This document shows positions 5,892 through 34,538 of a stretch of 64,000 bases of DNA, in pieces. This stretch comes from a bacterium (GTDB lineage Bacteria > Electryoneota > JAOADG01), in assembly GCA_026417415.1 (NCBI GenBank), contig JAOADG010000008.1, forward strand, positions 372,001-436,000, in the 5' to 3' direction. Below the pieces are notes generated by a model. The model searched no databases and was not told the DNA's origin. It worked only from the letters and a program-made list of their open reading frames with translations. Position 1 is the first letter of the stretch, and every line of letters starts with the position of its first letter. Made by a program: the position numbers and the translations under genes.

Positions 5892-8696
5892 ATGCATTCA
5901 ATGCTTCATCGTTTTTTCATAGTATTTATTAGCATAAGTTTTGTGTTATCTGCTTGGGGTGCTTGGGATGTCGAAAGAGATGCACCGCGTGGGCCTGTTC
6001 GAAAAGAATTTGCAACACAGTTATCCAATCAAAATATGCAGAATCGGGTTCACCGAGCAGGCGCAATTTGGATGAATATTACCAATTATGGCTTCTTTGG
6101 AAATTTAGGTCGCACTGACTCTGACGCATTGAAAGATCCGGAATATCCCGGTACTTGGGCTCCGCAATTAGAATATCCCGGTGGTTCTGGACGGCAGTAC
6201 CTATTTATGGGTGCACTTTGGGTAGGTGCTATGATACGTCAAGAGGGTACTGAATTTCCAAGGGTAAGTGTTGGAATCGATGGATGGACAAATCCTTCTG
6301 GCAGACCAAGAGGTGAATTCTTCCCAGGTGAAGGTGCACAAAACGGAATAGTTGAACGAAGTACAAGATTGAATGCGTACAATCGCTTAGGTCAATACAT
6401 TACAGATACAATCAATGCAGTTAGTCAGCAAGATTTTGTTTGCTCTTTTACTGATACCTTAAAAGAAACTTATTATGTTGCGAATGATGAAATTGACGGA
6501 CCTCACTATCCATTAGGAATCAAAGTATATCAAAAAAGTTATTCTTGGACTTACAATTATGCTCAAAATTTCATTATTATTGATTATGAGTTTGAAAACA
6601 TTGCAACAAACTATTTGAAAAATTTATATATCGGTTTATATATGGATGCTGACGTTGGTCACATTGATGAAAACGTTTGGCATACTGATGACATCACTGG
6701 TTTTCAAGAGTTTTATTATCCCCCACCAAGACCTGATGGAAGAAGAGATTCCGTTTTAATTAACACCGCTTGGATTGCGGACAATGATGGGCGTCCTGCT
6801 AACGTCAGTAGTGGTTCAAATTTTACCTGTCCGGATGTTTTTGGTGCACGTGTGTTACGTGCGCCGAATCCCAGATTAAAGACCAGTTACAACTGGTGGA
6901 TTTCAAATGGAAATTCTGCATTGGATTTTGGCCCCTCGTGGCAAAATGATGGTTCCGAAGGGGATTGGACCGTTACATACGGTACACCTATGGGGGATAA
7001 AAGAAAATATTTTGTGTTATCTAATCGTGAATTTGATTATGATCAATTGTATGTGGATAATCCAACCTATATCCAGAACAACCCACAAAGAGATTTAGAC
7101 GTACCCGATGTTTATCATCAATGGCGAATCCCTGATGCTGCGAATGCTACAGATTTAGCCAATGGCTATGATACACGTTATTTACTCTCTTGGGGCCCTT
7201 TAGGAGTATTTGATTATTTTGATCCCCAAGGGAATCGTGTATATCGACTAAATCCCGGTGAAAGATTTTCCATGACCGTTGCCTTGGTTATGGGGCAAGG
7301 ATTTCATGATCCAAACAACCCGCAAATTGGAAATGTAAATATTGATCGAAACAAATTCCGATTTGATCTTTTACAACGTGCTGCTGCGCAAGCGGCTCGT
7401 GTTTATGATAATCCTATGAAAGATACCAAAACACGGCAATATCCAAATGGTGATGGATGGTATGGGGAAGATGTTGGTTCAGATGGACTTTATGCCAATG
7501 CACCCGGAGATAGCATCATTATTGATGGTTTATTCCGTGCTATTTATCCCGGTCCTGATATTGATGGTACTGAAAAAAACAACATTATAGACAATTTGAC
7601 CAACGCAGACTATCCCGAATTTGCAAATAAAACGGAAGATACCCATCCCTGGAAACCTGCAAGATACGATTACACTTCAGGGAATCGAGTTCTTGATTTA
7701 GGTGATGGGGAACCTGACTTTTTAGGTCCCCCACCCCCACCTTCACCAGTAGTGACAGTACTTTCAGATGGTTCAACCAATTCTGTGAAAATACGATGGT
7801 ATCCTTACCCTTCTGAAGATCCCCTCTACGTAGATCCATTCTCAGGGTTACAAGATTTTGAAGGTTATAGGTTGTATGTATCAAATACTGGTTTAGAAGC
7901 TGATTTTAGTTTTGTAAAACAATGGGATAGAGTGGATTTTGGTTACTACACAAGCAATGATTCCTTGGTTGAACCACCGGTCACTGCAGATTCAGCTGCA
8001 CATTTACCACCTGTGAAATTAAAAGACGGAATAACGGTTTATTTACGTCCAGTGGGACCAAATACTGGATTTGCTGAGATATTGGATAGTGTTTTAGTCA
8101 CTAGACGGTTTACAAGACCCAATGGTTCGGAATATGATTCGACATTTTATGAAAAATATTATGAATATGAAATGAAAGATGTTGCTCCCATTTTTGCGAG
8201 ATATTATGCAGTGACCGTGTACGATTATGGTGATCCCAAAACTGGTACTGAATCGCTAGAAAGTGCAAAGACCGCAACTGCAGTTTTAACTGCACCTTCT
8301 GGTAATCCAAACAATAAAGTACTAGCAGTTCCCAATCCGTACAGGGTAGATGTTGATTATACACGTGTGTATAGTGGTGGTTTAAGTTGGGAAAATCAAG
8401 ACGATGGAACTACAGGCTTTTTCCCACAACAAGACCGAAGAATATGGTTTATCAATTTACCGAAACAAGCACTTATTCGAATTTATACAGTTTCGGGAGA
8501 TTTAGTAGCAATGATTCCGCATAACATTCCTGGAGATAGCAACCTGTGTACCAATTTAGATTATGCGGAGTGCTGGAATCTTCAAAATCGAAATGAACAG
8601 CTTGTTTCTAGTGGTTTATATTTGTTCTCGGTGGAAGATAAAACACCAGGAAGTAGTGGTGATATCCAAACCGGTAAGTTTGTTATCATTCGTTGA
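5892..8696 (+). CDS. Large secreted protein of unknown function with C-terminal FlgD/T9SS-like domain
   Basis: Signal peptide (start may be ATG 5901). C-terminus LAVPNPYRVD...RIYTVSGDLVAMI...SSGLYLFSVEDK...GKFVIIR resembles T9SS cargo tails. Confidence 0.6.
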   Translation: MHSMLHRFFIVFISISFVLSAWGAWDVERDAPRGPVRKEFATQLSNQNMQNRVHRAGAIWMNITNYGFFGNLGRTDSDALKDPEYPGTWAPQLEYPGGSGRQYLFMGALWVGAMIRQEGTEFPRVSVGIDGWTNPSGRPRGEFFPGEGAQNGIVERSTRLNAYNRLGQYITDTINAVSQQDFVCSFTDTLKETYYVANDEIDGPHYPLGIKVYQKSYSWTYNYAQNFIIIDYEFENIATNYLKNLYIGLYMDADVGHIDENVWHTDDITGFQEFYYPPPRPDGRRDSVLINTAWIADNDGRPANVSSGSNFTCPDVFGARVLRAPNPRLKTSYNWWISNGNSALDFGPSWQNDGSEGDWTVTYGTPMGDKRKYFVLSNREFDYDQLYVDNPTYIQNNPQRDLDVPDVYHQWRIPDAANATDLANGYDTRYLLSWGPLGVFDYFDPQGNRVYRLNPGERFSMTVALVMGQGFHDPNNPQIGNVNIDRNKFRFDLLQRAAAQAARVYDNPMKDTKTRQYPNGDGWYGEDVGSDGLYANAPGDSIIIDGLFRAIYPGPDIDGTEKNNIIDNLTNADYPEFANKTEDTHPWKPARYDYTSGNRVLDLGDGEPDFLGPPPPPSPVVTVLSDGSTNSVKIRWYPYPSEDPLYVDPFSGLQDFEGYRLYVSNTGLEADFSFVKQWDRVDFGYYTSNDSLVEPPVTADSAAHLPPVKLKDGITVYLRPVGPNTGFAEILDSVLVTRRFTRPNGSEYDSTFYEKYYEYEMKDVAPIFARYYAVTVYDYGDPKTGTESLESAKTATAVLTAPSGNPNNKVLAVPNPYRVDVDYTRVYSGGLSWENQDDGTTGFFPQQDRRIWFINLPKQALIRIYTVSGDLVAMIPHNIPGDSNLCTNLDYAECWNLQNRNEQLVSSGLYLFSVEDKTPGSSGDIQTGKFVIIR

Positions 8697-8716
8697 TGCC
8701 TGCGCAAGGAGCGGTA

Positions 8717-9736
8717 ATGAGACGAAATTCTCTTAAACTATTGATCATTTTAGGTTTATTCATTTTCCCTTGGATTGTATGGGGACAAGCAAAAGTTGGA
8801 ACTTCTACATTTCAATTCTTAAAAGTAAGTCCTTCCGCAAGGGCAATGGGAATGGGAGAAGCATTTATTGGTTTAGCAAATGATGCTTCTGCAGCTTACT
8901 ATAATCCTGCTGCCTTATTAACTTTAAGAAGCCCAACTGGAATGATTACCCATGTAGCATATCCATCAGGTGTGCAATTTAATTATATCGGTGGAGTATA
9001 CCCCCTACCAGCGGTGTATGGTGCGATTGGTGGTTACATTGCGGGATTAACTACCGATGATATGATTGAAACAACACCTACTATGCCTTATGGTACCGGC
9101 AGAACGTTCAATGTGTCCGAATTTACTGCGTCTGTATCTTGGAGTCAAAGATTGACCGATAAATTCACTGTAGGGATCACTGGACGATACATTCGTTCTA
9201 ATTTAGCAGACGTTAGTGCCAATGGATGGTCTGCAGATGTTGGAACCTATTACGAAACAGGGTGGAAAAATATTCGTATAGCAATGGTAATACAGAATTT
9301 TGGTCCCGATGTCAAATATCTACAAACAGAGCACACCTTGCCCATCACTTTTAAGTTTGGTGGTGCAGCCGAGGTATTCAAACAGGGCGATCATTCTGTG
9401 ACTGCTGCTGTAGAAGGTTGGCATCCAAATGATAACATCGAATTAATTGCTATCGGTGCTGAATATAGTTTCCGTGATTTTGTTCAATTTCGGTTGGGAA
9501 AGAAAATTAACGGAATAAGAAGAGATAAATATGAAGAATACGTTGTAAATAGTAAAGGTAAAGACCCATTTGTTGAGTATCCTTTATTTGATGAAAATGG
9601 TAATCTTACATTTGATGGTACTTCAGTAGGATTTGGTGTATCGTTACCTATCGGTTTATCAGTGGATTATGCACTGTCCAATATTGGGTATTTCGGTGAA
9701 TTGCACCGAATTTCATTAAGTTATACTTTAAAGTGA
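8717..9736 (+). CDS. PorV/PorQ-family outer membrane protein
   Basis: FQFLKVSPSARAMGMGEAFIGLANDASAAYYNPAAL is the PorV-type N-terminal motif. AAGGAG precedes ATG 8717. Confidence 0.8.
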   Translation: MRRNSLKLLIILGLFIFPWIVWGQAKVGTSTFQFLKVSPSARAMGMGEAFIGLANDASAAYYNPAALLTLRSPTGMITHVAYPSGVQFNYIGGVYPLPAVYGAIGGYIAGLTTDDMIETTPTMPYGTGRTFNVSEFTASVSWSQRLTDKFTVGITGRYIRSNLADVSANGWSADVGTYYETGWKNIRIAMVIQNFGPDVKYLQTEHTLPITFKFGGAAEVFKQGDHSVTAAVEGWHPNDNIELIAIGAEYSFRDFVQFRLGKKINGIRRDKYEEYVVNSKGKDPFVEYPLFDENGNLTFDGTSVGFGVSLPIGLSVDYALSNIGYFGELHRISLSYTLK

Positions 9737-24030: not shown

Positions 24031-24543
24031 TTATTGTTTTGGTTTACTATGATGTTCAATTTTAGGATACCATTCATCCAAGTTAAAGCCCTTAAATGTG
24101 GGGCTCTTTTCGTTATGGCAAACAACGCAATGTTCTTTGGGCTTTTCCACAAAACCATTTTCAATGGCTAATTTTTTATCTTTTGAGTGGGTGGTTTTGT
24201 AAGCAGAACCCGGTCCATGACAAGATTCGCAGTTGACCCCTTCGGTTTTAAATTCTGTTGACGAGATATGGCAGCTTAAGCACTCTTTGTCTTCTTGTGC
24301 AGAACCTTCACGACCAAGTTTTTTCATCACTGCCGCTGCTTCTTCAGTGCCCAAGGTAGCAAAAGCATTCGCATGTTTGGTTTTTTGCCAATCTTCATAA
24401 ATGTTCCCTTTTGCAGCACCCTTATGGCACATCACACATTTAGAATTGCCAATATAGGTAAAGCTTTTTTCGTTTTCTGCAAAAGCAATGATACTCATAG
24501 CCAATACGATGACTACAAGTAAAATAGAAAGAATTGTTTTCAT
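24031..24543 (-). CDS. Tetraheme c554-like cytochrome c
   Basis: Signal peptide; CVMCH, CLSCH, CESCH, CVVCH. Confidence 0.85.
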   Translation of the reverse strand: MKTILSILLVVIVLAMSIIAFAENEKSFTYIGNSKCVMCHKGAAKGNIYEDWQKTKHANAFATLGTEEAAAVMKKLGREGSAQEDKECLSCHISSTEFKTEGVNCESCHGPGSAYKTTHSKDKKLAIENGFVEKPKEHCVVCHNEKSPTFKGFNLDEWYPKIEHHSKPKQ

Positions 24544-24578: not shown

Positions 24579-25166
24579 TTAATTACTTTGAGTCCAGATA
24601 TGACCTGCTGGACCGTGACATCCTGTGCAGGTCAAAGTGGAATCGTTCCAACCAACACCGATTACTTCGGCAAAACCAGTGTCCAAATGACCCGTATCGT
24701 CCCACCGATTCGGTACTTGATGACAACCGGAGCAAGGTAATGGAAGGGATGGAGGAATGGAAGACAAATGAACTTGATGTGCGCCCACTCCACGTGCATT
24801 ACGAGATACGTTCCCGTTTAAATCTGTAGGTGGCGCCCAATTACGTGGTTCTAATGGATTTATACCAATCCCTTTCATACCGTGACAGAAATTGCAATCA
24901 GTAACAGTTATTCGGTTATTTTCAGAATGACACTTTCCACAACTCATACTTTGGTTGCCAAAACCATCAAAATTTGTTCCATGACACGCTGTACATTGTC
25001 CGATATCAAAACCATGACTTCTCAACCATTCATCATGAGTAACGTCTGCAGGTGATGGAAATGGATGTGGGTTTGATGAAAGTGGTACGTAAGATTCATT
25101 AATTTCTGCACCACAGCCAATTACTAAAAAAATAAAAAAAATAGAAATGATCAGATGCACTTGCAT
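24579..25166 (-). CDS. Pentaheme cytochrome c lipoprotein
   Basis: ATG at 25166 gives MQVHLIISIFFIFLVIGC lipobox; CTACH, CGKCH, CNFCH, CSGCH, CTGCH. Confidence 0.82.
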   Translation of the reverse strand: MQVHLIISIFFIFLVIGCGAEINESYVPLSSNPHPFPSPADVTHDEWLRSHGFDIGQCTACHGTNFDGFGNQSMSCGKCHSENNRITVTDCNFCHGMKGIGINPLEPRNWAPPTDLNGNVSRNARGVGAHQVHLSSIPPSLPLPCSGCHQVPNRWDDTGHLDTGFAEVIGVGWNDSTLTCTGCHGPAGHIWTQSN

Positions 25167-25176
25167 AGTTTTCTCC

Positions 25177-25863
25177 TTAATTATGGCACCTGACACAAGT
25201 TGGTTCCTGAGGGCTTTGGTCATGGCAAGCCAGACAACTTTCAAAGTACAATTTACCTTCTTCAGCATGTTTTCCACCAGCTCCAGTATTTGCCCACTGA
25301 TAACCCAATGGATGACGAATGGGAATACTCTTTCTATGACAATCAGTACAAAATTGCCGAGTTTCATGACAACTTAAACAGCGTCCACCCATAGCAGCAT
25401 CGGTTGAATGTTGAAAAATATAGTTTGGACTATGAGGTGAAAGATTTGATGTTGAATTTGAATGGCATTGATCACAACTCGCTTGTTCATGGCAAACGCG
25501 GCATTCCACTAAATTTGCACTGGCGTCCAACCCGTGAATCCTTGAATTCCATTCCGGTGATGTATGATTAAACGGTTTTCCAAAACCGCCGCCTTTAATA
25601 CCAGAAACGTGACAAGTATTGCATTCGTTGGTATTGTTTGTATTATGGCATTCTTTACATTGTTCGTGATTCGGATTTTTTCGGACACCTGCTTTTACTT
25701 CTTTTGCAGAACCATGACATTGAATACAGGTCATTTCTACAGTTTGAAGGTGTAGTGTGTGACTAAACTTTAATGCGGTAACGCTCTCATTTGCTCCAAA
25801 TACTAACCACGTGGTATTTAAAATAAATGTGAAAAGAAAAAGGAGTAAAATTTTGCGAATCAT
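25177..25863 (-). CDS. Nonaheme periplasmic cytochrome c
   Basis: Signal peptide and nine CxxCH motifs (CIQCH, CKECH, CNTCH, CRVCH, CDQCH, CLSCH, CTDCH, CLACH, CVRCH). Confidence 0.85.
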   Translation of the reverse strand: MIRKILLLFLFTFILNTTWLVFGANESVTALKFSHTLHLQTVEMTCIQCHGSAKEVKAGVRKNPNHEQCKECHNTNNTNECNTCHVSGIKGGGFGKPFNHTSPEWNSRIHGLDASANLVECRVCHEQASCDQCHSNSTSNLSPHSPNYIFQHSTDAAMGGRCLSCHETRQFCTDCHRKSIPIRHPLGYQWANTGAGGKHAEEGKLYFESCLACHDQSPQEPTCVRCHN

Positions 25864-27149
25864 CGTGTAATTCCTTGTGAGAAGGTATAAGTCAGTGTAC
25901 CAAGAACTCTACCATCACGTTTAAGTTTAGGATTAGAATAGTATTGGTATTCAAGTTCACCTGTCAAGAATTTGAACCGATTTGGAGTATAGCGAACACC
26001 GGAGATGAAATTGCGTGTGGTTTGCGTTTGAATGCCAACTTCTTCCCATTCTGATTGAATGCTGGATGCTCGCAGATACCAATGGATTTGTTTGAATGCT
26101 TCATAGTAAAGGGATATCCAAGGTCCATTGGACTTAGACAAATATCCGAAAGAATGTTGATAACCAATTTGACCATAAGGTGTAAGACACGCTACACCAA
26201 CTCGATGTCCTTCGTTACCGGAATAATAACTGGTCGCTTCGGTACGAAAGCCCCATTTTGCAGGTACAAAATAATAATCAAAGATGGTCTGCATTCTGGT
26301 CGAAAAGGGAAAAACTGCAATCCCAATGGGTGCGTCAATTTCAGTAGTTTTAGGAAGTTTGAAATTTCGAAACCAACTCGAACTTGAAATTTCTGGACGA
26401 TAAATTCCTATATCACTAAACCATATGATTTTTGACGATGCATACCGAATGCGTAAAGAACTGGTGCGAATATCTTGTGATAGAAGTCGGTATTGAGTAT
26501 TACTTAAAATTGTCCAATGAGCATTGATTCGTCCAAAAAGTTGTAACCCGAGATTGTTTCGGAATTCATTTCCTTCGCGATACTGATCAGCATAGGACAA
26601 TTTCAACATGAATCGTTGGAAAGGATGGAGTTCAAGTTTAGAATACCGAAACTCGCCACCATAGATTGGAGAATGACCTTTAGAAATCTCAAAACGATGA
26701 TTGTCAGGTGATACAATACCACCAAAAACAGTTATCCCCAAATATTTAGAAAGATCCGTTGTGTATTCTAAACCATCTATATTGCCTAATCCTACACCTC
26801 GGTATAGAAAAAAACGACCTATCTTGAATTCAGTATCAGAACCCCATTGACCATATTGCCAATAAGCCGAATACAAATGAAAATCACCTGATTCACTAAA
26901 TTGATCCGCATGATTTCCGCGATACTGAAAATGTGTGTTGAAAGAACTTTGCAAAGGTAAATCACTTAACTGACTCCTAATCCCACTAAACAACCAGAGG
27001 TGGTCTTCACTTCCACTATTTGTGGCGTTTACAAATTGATAAGAGTAAACGCTGGTATAAATACTACTTTGAATTCCAACAGCTGACCCCGTCGACGAAA
27101 AGCCAAGTAAGAAAAGGCAAAAAAGAGTAAAAATTAAAACAAATCTCAT
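25860..27149 (-). CDS. Predicted outer membrane beta-barrel (putative porin of a porin-cytochrome conduit)
   Basis: Signal peptide, no heme motif, no long hydrophobic helix after it. Alternating amphipathic strands with aromatic residues (FKIGRFFLYRGVGLGNIDGLEYTTDLSKYLGITVFGG). Overlaps both neighbours by 4 nt. Confidence 0.65.
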   Translation of the reverse strand: MRFVLIFTLFCLFLLGFSSTGSAVGIQSSIYTSVYSYQFVNATNSGSEDHLWLFSGIRSQLSDLPLQSSFNTHFQYRGNHADQFSESGDFHLYSAYWQYGQWGSDTEFKIGRFFLYRGVGLGNIDGLEYTTDLSKYLGITVFGGIVSPDNHRFEISKGHSPIYGGEFRYSKLELHPFQRFMLKLSYADQYREGNEFRNNLGLQLFGRINAHWTILSNTQYRLLSQDIRTSSLRIRYASSKIIWFSDIGIYRPEISSSSWFRNFKLPKTTEIDAPIGIAVFPFSTRMQTIFDYYFVPAKWGFRTEATSYYSGNEGHRVGVACLTPYGQIGYQHSFGYLSKSNGPWISLYYEAFKQIHWYLRASSIQSEWEEVGIQTQTTRNFISGVRYTPNRFKFLTGELEYQYYSNPKLKRDGRVLGTLTYTFSQGITR

Positions 27150-29818
27150 TTTAACTCCGAATCCGTACTGGAACTTTCATTAACTTTCAGATCCGTTTGA
27201 TCTATATGATCGGCATTATTTAGATGATTCGATGTATCAGAATCAGGGTCACCGGGATGAACAAAATTAGGTTGTCCTAAAGTTGCTTCGGCAGCTTTGC
27301 GATGATGGTGTTCCCATTCCTCTTTGCTCATTCTACCAGTTAAAAAAGTCAAAGATAAAGGATATTGTTTTGGATGGAAAATTACAAAAAAGAAATGCCA
27401 AATTAGGATTGCACCTACTGCTAAAATGGCTTCATAATAATGAATGACGCCCGAAACGCGTACTATCCATCCCGGCGCCCAAGAAGTGATAATTGTAGGG
27501 AACCACAAGATAAATCCGGTCAATCCCATAATGATGGTTCCCCAAACCAATGCCCAGTATTCTGCTTTTTGAGTATAGTCGTAGGTACCAAAATGAGGGG
27601 GGTCTTTACGTAAACGTAAATAATAAAGAACATTTTGAAATGCCAATCGGGTATCTTCTATTTTCGGGTAATAATTCTTTAATTTTTCACGACCGCGTTG
27701 TGTACCAAACAACCAAATGACATGCCAAACGGTGCCGATTAGTAACGTGATTGCTAAGACCCGATGCGTTGTTGCACGTCTAATTTCATTCATTCCAAAG
27801 AAATTCAGAATTTTTACCCACCAAGAATCTGCAAAGCGAAGTGCAAAGCCAGTGATGGCTAATCCAATGAATGTGAATAACAACAACAAGTGTTGCCAAA
27901 TCTCTTGTTTACTCATTCTAACAATGTAATCTTCTTTTTTATGTTTATGATAGTGTTCTCGTAAATAGTAAACGAAGATAATGACATTGTGAATAAGCAT
28001 ACCTCCTAATGTAAGTGCAATGAGGACAATATAAATTACGCGTACATAATCATGTTTTCCCCAAACTTGACCAAATGCTGCATGGGTATAGGATTGGGCA
28101 AATTCTGCATTGGAGTTGGGATGGCATTTCCCACAAGTTTGAATGACATGATTAGGATGTGTAGAGGAAGTAGGATCCAGATGGCTACGGATAGCATGGG
28201 TAGTATGACAATCATTACAGTTGGCAACGATTTGTGATCCTTTTAACGCCCATCCGTGGTAACTGTCTTGATAACTTTTAACTACACCATACCATATTCC
28301 AAAACGATCGGTTAAAGCACGATTCTCATGACATCTACCACAGTCCGATGCTATGTTTAGAGGGTAAGTTCGGGATGCAGGATTGGATTTTGGCAAAATG
28401 TAATGCGATTCGTGACAATCGTTGCAGGTAGGTGAATCAGTTATTCCACGACGTGCGGCTGCACCATGAATTGAAGTCAAATAATCTGCAGCTGCTTGTT
28501 CATGACATTTGCCACAAGCACGAGGTAAATTCTGTCGGTGGGTAATGCTTGCCGGATCACCAGCCGATTGGATTTCGTGGGTACCATGACAATCTGTACA
28601 CAATGCGCCCCTGCTAAGTGTTGTGTCCTGTTTCCATGCCTGCCACTTTTCTGCATGGATAGATTTCATATAATTGGAAAGAGTCATCGGTAAACGCACA
28701 AAATCTGACGTTAGAACCAAACTATCACCATGGCACTTACCACACATTTGTGGTTGATTAAATGGATGGGCCATACTTTTCCGATCGGTCACCCTACGAA
28801 CTCCATGTCCACCATCATGGCAATCCCCGCAATTGGCTGCCACTCCTAAACCTGTCGGATCGTCCCGAAAGTGCATTGAACGTTTATATTCTTCCAATTG
28901 TTGAGAATGGCAATCCCCACAATGAAAAGCTTGTTCGTTTGGTCTAAGATGAATAGAATGACAACTGGCACAAGTCATCTCTTGACTAATCAATTTTGCC
29001 ATATGGACAGATTCACTAAATTCATTCATGGACTTATGGTGACAAGCCAAGCAATTGGAAAATGCATCGTTGGATTTTTTTGGATTTGGAATTCCGTGCG
29101 GATCGTGACAACTGCTGCAAGAAACTTTAGCTACTAAACTATCAGTTGGTATGGGTTGATGTATACCGTGGATCCCATGAGGACCGTTTTTTAAGCGTGC
29201 CATCGCATCAATATGGCAATTTTGGCAGGTCTTTGTGATGGATACTGGGTCATTGAGTTTAATTTCGCCATGAGGTTTATGACAAGTTGCGCAAGCGTGT
29301 CCATCTTTTGAAGGGAATACTTTGAAATGTTTACTGGATTGAAATTGTTTACTTTCTTCACTATGACATTTGGTACAAGATAAACCTGCTACTCCGCTCG
29401 CATTTGAACCTATCCGATGCATATCACCATTGATGGTGTGGCAATCTTTGCATTGTGCTGCGATAAAAGGAGATGTTCCACCACCTGTGCCATGAACTGA
29501 TTTTCGCCAATTTTCTGTAATTCCTTCATGACAATCATCGCAGTTAACTGGAGTGTATTTCGTATAGTGAGGTACATCATCATAATTCCCTGCCGAATGG
29601 CAATCAATGCAATTTAGATTTCCATGTGCGCTTTTAGAATACTCTGAAGTTACAAACATCTTTCTATTATCACTACTTTTTAATGAAGCATCTGAGTGGC
29701 ACATCATACAGTACTCATTGGATTGCCATTCTGATTGTGCTGCAAAAGAAGTATCAAAAAATGAGAATGAGAAAATGAAAGATAAAAATAGAGAAAAAAG
29801 TGTTTTCGTTAGTTTCAT
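27146..29818 (-). CDS. 19-heme cytochrome c fused to a C-terminal FdnI/HydC-like cytochrome b membrane domain
   Basis: 19 CxxCH motifs counted by hand, then TM helices with His residues (HNVIIFVYYLREHYHKHKKEDYIVRMSKQEIWQHLLLLFTFIGLAITGFALRF...HRVLAITLLIGTVWHVIWLF). Confidence 0.88.
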   Translation of the reverse strand: MKLTKTLFSLFLSFIFSFSFFDTSFAAQSEWQSNEYCMMCHSDASLKSSDNRKMFVTSEYSKSAHGNLNCIDCHSAGNYDDVPHYTKYTPVNCDDCHEGITENWRKSVHGTGGGTSPFIAAQCKDCHTINGDMHRIGSNASGVAGLSCTKCHSEESKQFQSSKHFKVFPSKDGHACATCHKPHGEIKLNDPVSITKTCQNCHIDAMARLKNGPHGIHGIHQPIPTDSLVAKVSCSSCHDPHGIPNPKKSNDAFSNCLACHHKSMNEFSESVHMAKLISQEMTCASCHSIHLRPNEQAFHCGDCHSQQLEEYKRSMHFRDDPTGLGVAANCGDCHDGGHGVRRVTDRKSMAHPFNQPQMCGKCHGDSLVLTSDFVRLPMTLSNYMKSIHAEKWQAWKQDTTLSRGALCTDCHGTHEIQSAGDPASITHRQNLPRACGKCHEQAAADYLTSIHGAAARRGITDSPTCNDCHESHYILPKSNPASRTYPLNIASDCGRCHENRALTDRFGIWYGVVKSYQDSYHGWALKGSQIVANCNDCHTTHAIRSHLDPTSSTHPNHVIQTCGKCHPNSNAEFAQSYTHAAFGQVWGKHDYVRVIYIVLIALTLGGMLIHNVIIFVYYLREHYHKHKKEDYIVRMSKQEIWQHLLLLFTFIGLAITGFALRFADSWWVKILNFFGMNEIRRATTHRVLAITLLIGTVWHVIWLFGTQRGREKLKNYYPKIEDTRLAFQNVLYYLRLRKDPPHFGTYDYTQKAEYWALVWGTIIMGLTGFILWFPTIITSWAPGWIVRVSGVIHYYEAILAVGAILIWHFFFVIFHPKQYPLSLTFLTGRMSKEEWEHHHRKAAEATLGQPNFVHPGDPDSDTSNHLNNADHIDQTDLKVNESSSTDSELK

Positions 29819-32132: not shown

Positions 32133-32549
32133 CTATTTTTTATGACATGCAGTACAATTTTTATTGGAATGACAAGTGAAGCAACTTTCGTGAAGTACAA
32201 CTTTACTCTCTTGCACATCCCAACGAGTAACTTCCTTCTGATGACAATGACTGCAACTTTCAACGTGGTGGCATTCAATACACTGAATTTTCAAATCATG
32301 CTCGTGTAACTTGTGATTAAATACAATTTGCGTACCACCCAGGTATTTGGTTTGAAATACTTTTTCATCTGGAATAGGCCGTTTACGATTTGTCCAATCA
32401 TACAAGATTGAAGGTTCAGCTATCTTTGCACTATCTGATGGCTTTACTTCAACGGGTGCTTTTGTTTTGGGGTCTTTCGAATAAGCGTTCAACAGGAATA
32501 GAACCAGTGTATTCGTAAAAAGCAGAAATACAATCAAATATTTTTTCAT
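32133..32549 (-). CDS. Small tetraheme cytochrome c (c3/c7-like)
   Basis: Signal peptide; CIECH, CSHCH, CFTCH, CTACH. Confidence 0.85.
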   Translation of the reverse strand: MKKYLIVFLLFTNTLVLFLLNAYSKDPKTKAPVEVKPSDSAKIAEPSILYDWTNRKRPIPDEKVFQTKYLGGTQIVFNHKLHEHDLKIQCIECHHVESCSHCHQKEVTRWDVQESKVVLHESCFTCHSNKNCTACHKK

Positions 32550-33767: not shown

Positions 33768-34538
33768 CTAAGAATCCTTATCTTTTTTTCGTTTTTCAGA
33801 TCGAGAGGTTTCTTTATGTTCTTGCTCAAGAGACATTCTACGGTTTACTAACCAAGATATTCCACCTAACAGAATAGCGCCTGTAATCACCACATTCGGA
33901 ATTCTTCTGAGAACAGTACCAGTAAGTTCTGGAAGTTCAACTTCCGGTAAATCAGTTCTAAAACCAAGTTCTTCAAATGGAATACTACTTAACATCAAAA
34001 CTGAAGTTCCACCAACTTCTGTTTCTCCATAAACTTTATGAACATAACGATTTGGAAAAGTTAAAATTCGTTTGTGCGCAATTTCTAATAAGTACTCTCG
34101 ATCACCGAATCTACATGCTCCTGTTGGACAAACCCATGCACATGCTGTTGGAAGACCTTCTTTTACACGCTGGTGACACATGATACACTTACGAATGACA
34201 GGAATGGGTTTATCCCATTCATATTTTGGAATTTGAAAGGGGCAAGCCATCATACAGTAACGGCATCCCATACATTTACTGGGATAGTAAATGACAGGGC
34301 CGTTCTCCGTTTTTTCTAACGCAGCTACAGGACAAACGGAAACACAAGCCGGATGTAAACAATGCATACACATTTTGCGAAAATATTGGTGGTTTCGCTT
34401 GAGTACTACAGTAAAGTTTTTATAGTTTAATTTATCGTCAGGGGCATCGGAAGGAAGGTTATTTTCTTTAGCACAATATTCTTCGCATGCCTGACAACCA
34501 ACACAGCGTGTGAAATCCAAAAGCAAAGCTTTACTCAT
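33768..34538 (-). CDS. 4Fe-4S ferredoxin-type subunit (HybA/DmsB-like) with C-terminal TM anchor
   Basis: CVGCQACEEYC, CMHCLHPACVSVCP, CMGCRYCMMACP, CIMCHQRV...CAWVCPTGA. C-terminal VITGAILLGGISWLV helix. Confidence 0.9.
   Translation of the reverse strand: MSKALLLDFTRCVGCQACEEYCAKENNLPSDAPDDKLNYKNFTVVLKRNHQYFRKMCMHCLHPACVSVCPVAALEKTENGPVIYYPSKCMGCRYCMMACPFQIPKYEWDKPIPVIRKCIMCHQRVKEGLPTACAWVCPTGACRFGDREYLLEIAHKRILTFPNRYVHKVYGETEVGGTSVLMLSSIPFEELGFRTDLPEVELPELTGTVLRRIPNVVITGAILLGGISWLVNRRMSLEQEHKETSRSEKRKKDKDS

Follow-up and report, generated by a model that had tools for sequence, protein, structure and literature searches.

Does a protein that joins 19 c-type hemes to a membrane-embedded cytochrome b represent a new kind of electron-transfer system, and what is it likely to do in the cell? 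This question is raised by a gene in a 64,000-nucleotide stretch of a bacterial genome (Electryoneota, JAOADG01; GenBank assembly GCA_026417415.1, contig JAOADG010000008.1, positions 372,001 to 436,000 of the forward strand), hereafter the window, to which all coordinates refer unless another locus is named. Our results indicate that the encoded 890-amino-acid (aa) protein is a heme-rich member of the already described CbcL/MtrH/MtoC family and not a new kind of system. Judging from its sequence and gene neighbourhood, it probably acts as an inner-membrane quinol:cytochrome c oxidoreductase for extracellular electron transfer, expanded in hemes and feeding an outer-membrane conduit. The gene and its parts are as follows (TM, transmembrane).

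27146..29818, minus strand: fusion of a 19-heme cytochrome c and a six-TM FdnI-like cytochrome b (CbcL-type), 890 aa
28121..29818, minus strand: signal peptide and periplasmic c-type domain, residues 1-566, 19 CxxCH motifs
29039..29611, minus strand: variable heme block, motifs of hemes 2-9, residues 70-260
27359..28054, minus strand: six-TM b domain, residues 589-820, with invariant His 610, 643, 685, 793 and 808 and nearly invariant His 699

The original prediction, made from the DNA letters alone, had placed the gene at 27146-29818 and left the strand unstated. The coordinates are correct and the strand is minus, as frame 1 of the plus strand is interrupted by 46 stop codons and the minus-strand open reading frame (ORF) runs for 890 aa. 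Behind a hydrophobic N-terminal signal sequence, residues 37 to 566 carry exactly 19 CxxCH motifs, one for every 29 aa or so, followed by six C-terminal hydrophobic segments from residue 590 to approximately 815. Pfam assigns c7/c3-type multiheme domains and then PF01292 (Ni_hydr_CYTB; cytochrome b561/Ni-hydrogenase b type; residues 634-815, E=3.6e-16), and the NCBIfam model TIGR01583 (formate dehydrogenase gamma) matches weakly, under its cut-off. The two halves of the heme domain align at about 24-26% identity, a figure obtained with composition correction off and inflated by the Cys/His spacing. Shuffled versions of the protein contain on average 0.12 CxxCH motifs and homologs with 19 motifs occur in other genomes; therefore, the protein is not a product of chance or an artefact of gene calling.

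Its own genome, of 2.2 Mb, contains one copy of the gene, and full-length relatives exist elsewhere, with matches in 33 of the 61 genomes searched (own genome included). In 12 homologs from other genomes that have exactly 19 motifs, all 19 are invariant and occupy the same places. Alignment of these 13 sequences reveals 17 invariant non-motif His residues in the c domain and two more that are conserved in 12/13 and 11/13, giving 19 candidate distal ligands, one possible for each heme; no Met of the c domain is invariant in this alignment. The c hemes are therefore probably all bis-His. In a wider alignment of 50 relatives, membrane His 610, 643, 685, 793 and 808 are invariant and His699 is present in 49. 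Loss of the His ligands in the membrane helices had been named beforehand as an observation that would refute the original prediction, and no such loss is seen.

An AlphaFold2 (AF2) model built on the 50-sequence alignment has a mean pLDDT (predicted local distance difference test) of 78; for most of residues 380-800 the value is close to 90 or higher. The best fold match of the b domain is FdnI (1kqf_C; Z 16.1 over 207 residues), followed by the cytochrome b of hydrogenase-1 (Z 11.1). His793 and His808 fall on the equivalent region of FdnI in a phmmer alignment, and we take the FdnI residues aligned to them to be FdnI heme ligands. Sequence matches to solved structures cover only short stretches of the protein, and Foldseek returned no strong match for the heme domain, which we do not count as evidence. 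The motif count, PF01292 and the FdnI fold thus agree with the original prediction of 19 CxxCH motifs followed by a multi-TM FdnI/HydC-like b domain in one protein.

Geobacter CbcL had been named as the closest known architecture, with far fewer hemes, and the homology searches bear this out. A Geobacter-like family of genomes was reached via genome G345, which has three PpcA-family matches above the cut-off of model NF043011. Matches to the 19-heme protein were found in 20 of the 21 genomes of this family, the best ranging from E=3.7e-57 to about 1e-46; the proteins aligned are those of the Geobacter-like family, not GSU0274 itself. They have nine hemes, about 585-684 aa and mostly six TM segments, and align at about 28% identity across the membrane-proximal hemes of the core and the entire b domain. 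Five of the six b-domain His (610, 643, 685, 793 and 808) are common to 22 Geobacter-type sequences. CbcL is an inner-membrane protein that moves electrons out of the respiratory quinone pool in the direction of the cell exterior. It has nine bis-His c hemes and a six-helix diheme b domain, donates electrons to PpcA and is required for low-potential extracellular acceptors (PMC9129911). With 19 CxxCH motifs in a family reported to range from 3 to 23, a six-TM HydC/FdnI-like domain, conserved membrane His and homology to CbcL, the protein belongs to the CbcL/MtrH/MtoC family.

How common is such a protein? A scan of GTDB species genomes yielded at least 571 loci encoding relatives, of which 80 were kept. 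Labels among these relatives include Krumholzibacteriota, Acidobacteria, Zixibacteria, Calditrichaeota, Ignavibacteria/Melioribacter, Gemmatimonadota, Planctomycetota, Latescibacterota and SAR324; for plasmid-borne relatives, the search gave one weak partial match only. Among 124 fusion-type ORFs, a set that includes some duplicates between two collections and some paralogs, 19 heme motifs is the commonest number (43 ORFs), followed by 16 (36), 11 (22) and 17 (16). The rarity implied by the original prediction is therefore not upheld, nor is the architecture unique. The survey of CbcL/MtrH/MtoC homologs by Zhong & Shi (2018) describes 138 homologs from 15 phyla with 3-23 heme motifs and 416-1034 aa, which have conserved membrane His and are often encoded next to mtrAB or further genes for c-type cytochromes (PMC6295460), and this published range takes in the 19-heme form. 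What our analysis adds in detail is modest, namely the modular layout of the hemes and the barrel/cytochrome gene cluster.

The modular layout is apparent from the 50-sequence alignment, in which hemes 11-19 are present in all sequences, hemes 1 and 10 in 49 of the 50, and hemes 2-9 are variable. The motifs of hemes 2-9 are wholly or partly missing in relatives with 10-12, 16 and 17 hemes: the 11-heme forms have none of them, and the 16- and 17-heme forms have some. On these motif patterns, the family is modular, with a 10- or 11-heme core and a variable five- to eight-heme insertion. In a tree built from the core and b domain, the window protein sits in a nearly pure 19-heme clade of 20 members (support 1.0), surrounded by 16-, 17- and 11-heme groups. 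The same tree contains a second, divergent group of 17/19-heme paralogs, often encoded next door. In many Ignavibacteria-type genomes (L053, L054, L060, L066, L072, L078, L082 and others), the fused gene is accompanied by a split paralog, consisting of a 17-23-heme protein with one or two TM segments and a separate b protein with three or four. In the genome of the window, at L154 (G000:C29, 3275-7224, minus strand), an eight-heme 524-aa protein is encoded next to a b-type cytochrome of 215 aa and a pair of multi-TM proteins. This set was considered as a split paralog and rejected, as it looks like a separate octaheme-type system, possibly a sulfur-linked one.

The neighbouring genes are all on the same strand as the 19-heme gene and encode the following.

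25860..27149, minus strand: outer-membrane beta-barrel, 429 aa, about 20 strands; its start overlaps the CbcL-type stop by 4 bp
25177..25863, minus strand: 228-aa periplasmic cytochrome c with nine hemes; its gene shares 4 bp with the barrel gene
24579..25166, minus strand: five-heme cytochrome with a lipobox-like signal (LVIGC); its start is provisionally re-placed at an internal Met (MQVHL)
24031..24543, minus strand: tetraheme c554-like periplasmic cytochrome, 170 aa
29987..32032, minus strand: 681-aa protein with a NapC/NrfH-type N-terminus and 17 CxxCH motifs
32133..32549, minus strand: small tetraheme cytochrome, 138 aa
32558..33829, minus strand: NrfD/HmcC-like integral membrane quinone-interacting subunit
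33768..34538, minus strand: HmcB/HybA-like 4x[4Fe-4S] protein with a C-terminal TM segment and no Tat signal

The barrel has no Pfam or NCBIfam match; AF2 predicts a complete transmembrane beta-barrel with about 20 strands, which can be aligned to outer-membrane barrels, its fold matches being generic barrels of the OprD and TonB-dependent types. A predicted barrel is thus encoded together with multiheme cytochromes of predicted periplasmic and surface location, as in porin-cytochrome gene clusters, and the set has the appearance of an extracellular electron transfer operon. The order c554-like, lipoprotein, nine-heme, barrel and 19-heme gene is kept in a genome of the same family (G001), where the block adjoins a rho homolog and two ORFs that resemble, by sequence, the same folC and murI. 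In Melioribacter/Stygiobacter-type genomes, the versions with 16 hemes have the same gene set as neighbours, in most cases together with the Fe-S/NrfD genes and a protein of 13 hemes. Across relatives, 23 of 58 forms with 16-20 hemes have the nine-heme and lipoprotein genes nearby, as against none of the 22 with 10-12 hemes (P=2e-4, without correction for phylogeny).

Several observations on the surrounding DNA stand apart from this argument. The NapC-like 17-heme protein is a second heme-expanded quinol-side protein in the cluster, and its relatives elsewhere have 17-21 hemes. The HmcB/HybA-like protein lacks the Tat signal that most Melioribacter-type relatives have, as does the relative at L050, and its side of the membrane may therefore differ from that of those relatives. 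Elsewhere in the window (8693-9736, plus strand), a PorV-like (type IX secretion) protein is encoded near large secreted-type ORFs, which indicates a Bacteroidota/FCB-type envelope.

Taken together, these features suggest a path in which every transfer step is our inference. Menaquinol would be oxidised at the FdnI-like b domain, and the electrons would cross two b hemes, whose bis-His ligation is suggested by the conserved His, to the membrane-proximal c hemes, reaching heme 19 first. They would then move outward along some 19 c hemes, presumably bis-His ligated to judge from the conserved His, and pass to the nine-heme cytochrome and the outer-membrane barrel, either directly or via the tetraheme c554-like protein. 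The surface lipoprotein cytochrome would be the last stop. Some results weigh against this assignment to extracellular electron transfer. The N-terminal heme block is modelled by AF2 with a pLDDT of only about 50-75, and we found no experiment in the literature on any member with 16-19 hemes. Both partner genes are in the fetched flanks of only 23 of the 58 extended forms, and of only 5 of 19 in the 18-20-heme class; contig ends often truncate these flanks. The genome also carries a cluster resembling alternative complex III (pentaheme protein, 1069-aa Fe-S protein and NrfD-type protein; L156, G000:C3, 5590-11887), and hence other routes of quinol oxidation exist.

The chain might run in the opposite sense, with an extracellular donor such as Fe(II) or a partner cell feeding the barrel complex, the 19-heme chain and finally the quinone pool, as has been proposed for MtoC homologs. 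We consider this distinctly improbable, since quinol is oxidised by Geobacter CbcL, the nearest in architecture among the characterised relatives, and since iron reducers have been reported from the lineage of the Melioribacter/Stygiobacter-type genomes with the same cluster mates (PMC7399161). Less likely still is that the protein serves as membrane anchor and conduit of a periplasmic reductase (e.g. for nitrite, sulfur or tetrathionate) outside extracellular electron transfer. Such a role would fit the local resemblance to HAO/octaheme-type folds, the local matches with NrfB/DmsE-type hidden Markov models and the use of DmsE-type decahemes by reductases; but we recognised no gene for a catalytic reductase in the cluster, every candidate distal ligand is a conserved His, the gene overlaps that of an outer-membrane barrel, and the HAO-type matches (Z of at most 8.2) lie at about the tool's stated noise range.

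Within the preferred assignment to outward extracellular electron transfer, a long periplasmic wire in one polypeptide chain is plausible; the idea of a single wire across the whole periplasm is weakened by the conserved tetraheme c554-like protein, which, by its sequence, could act as an ordinary shuttle. A bolder proposal is that the extra five- to eight-heme block makes the CbcL-type protein a single-polypeptide conductor from the quinone pool to the barrel complex without a diffusing shuttle, the block being gained or lost as a module upon pairing with the barrel cluster. The presence of the nine-heme and lipoprotein genes near 23 of 58 extended forms vs 0 of 22 short ones, uncorrected for phylogeny, hints at this, and we hold it to be tentative and on balance unlikely. 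If it is true that expanded forms span the periplasm in one chain, the shuttle step of extracellular respiration, a debated and possibly limiting part of it, would be bypassed. The lineages concerned are mostly uncultured, and we found no literature on the pathway there. The characterised member of the family carries nine hemes; to this our results add a 19-heme lineage, which is conserved, and a layout that is clearly modular.

Compared with known systems, the protein has the same architecture as the CbcL/MtrH/MtoC homologs surveyed previously; the modular heme block and the barrel/nine-heme/lipoprotein cluster are not among the descriptions in the available part of that survey (PMC6295460). 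It resembles CbcL of G. sulfurreducens (GSU0274) in its N-terminal multiheme c domain and six-TM HydC/FdnI-like diheme b domain, and in bis-His c hemes, which are reported for CbcL and inferred here. It differs in having 19 hemes instead of nine and in its partners, the barrel/nine-heme/lipoprotein set instead of triheme PpcA; moreover, the Geobacter-type proteins lack hemes at core positions 13 and 14 and have mostly Ser, in a few cases Thr or Val, at the position of His699. With FdnI, the gamma subunit of E. coli formate dehydrogenase-N, it shares the fold of the b domain and the conserved heme-ligand His region, whereas FdnI is a separate subunit without c hemes that receives its electrons from an Fe-S protein. 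Finally, the cluster resembles porin-cytochrome complexes (Pcc, Mtr) in placing an outer-membrane barrel gene beside genes for multiheme and lipoprotein multiheme cytochromes, although the barrel here is a 429-aa protein outside the Pfam and NCBIfam models.
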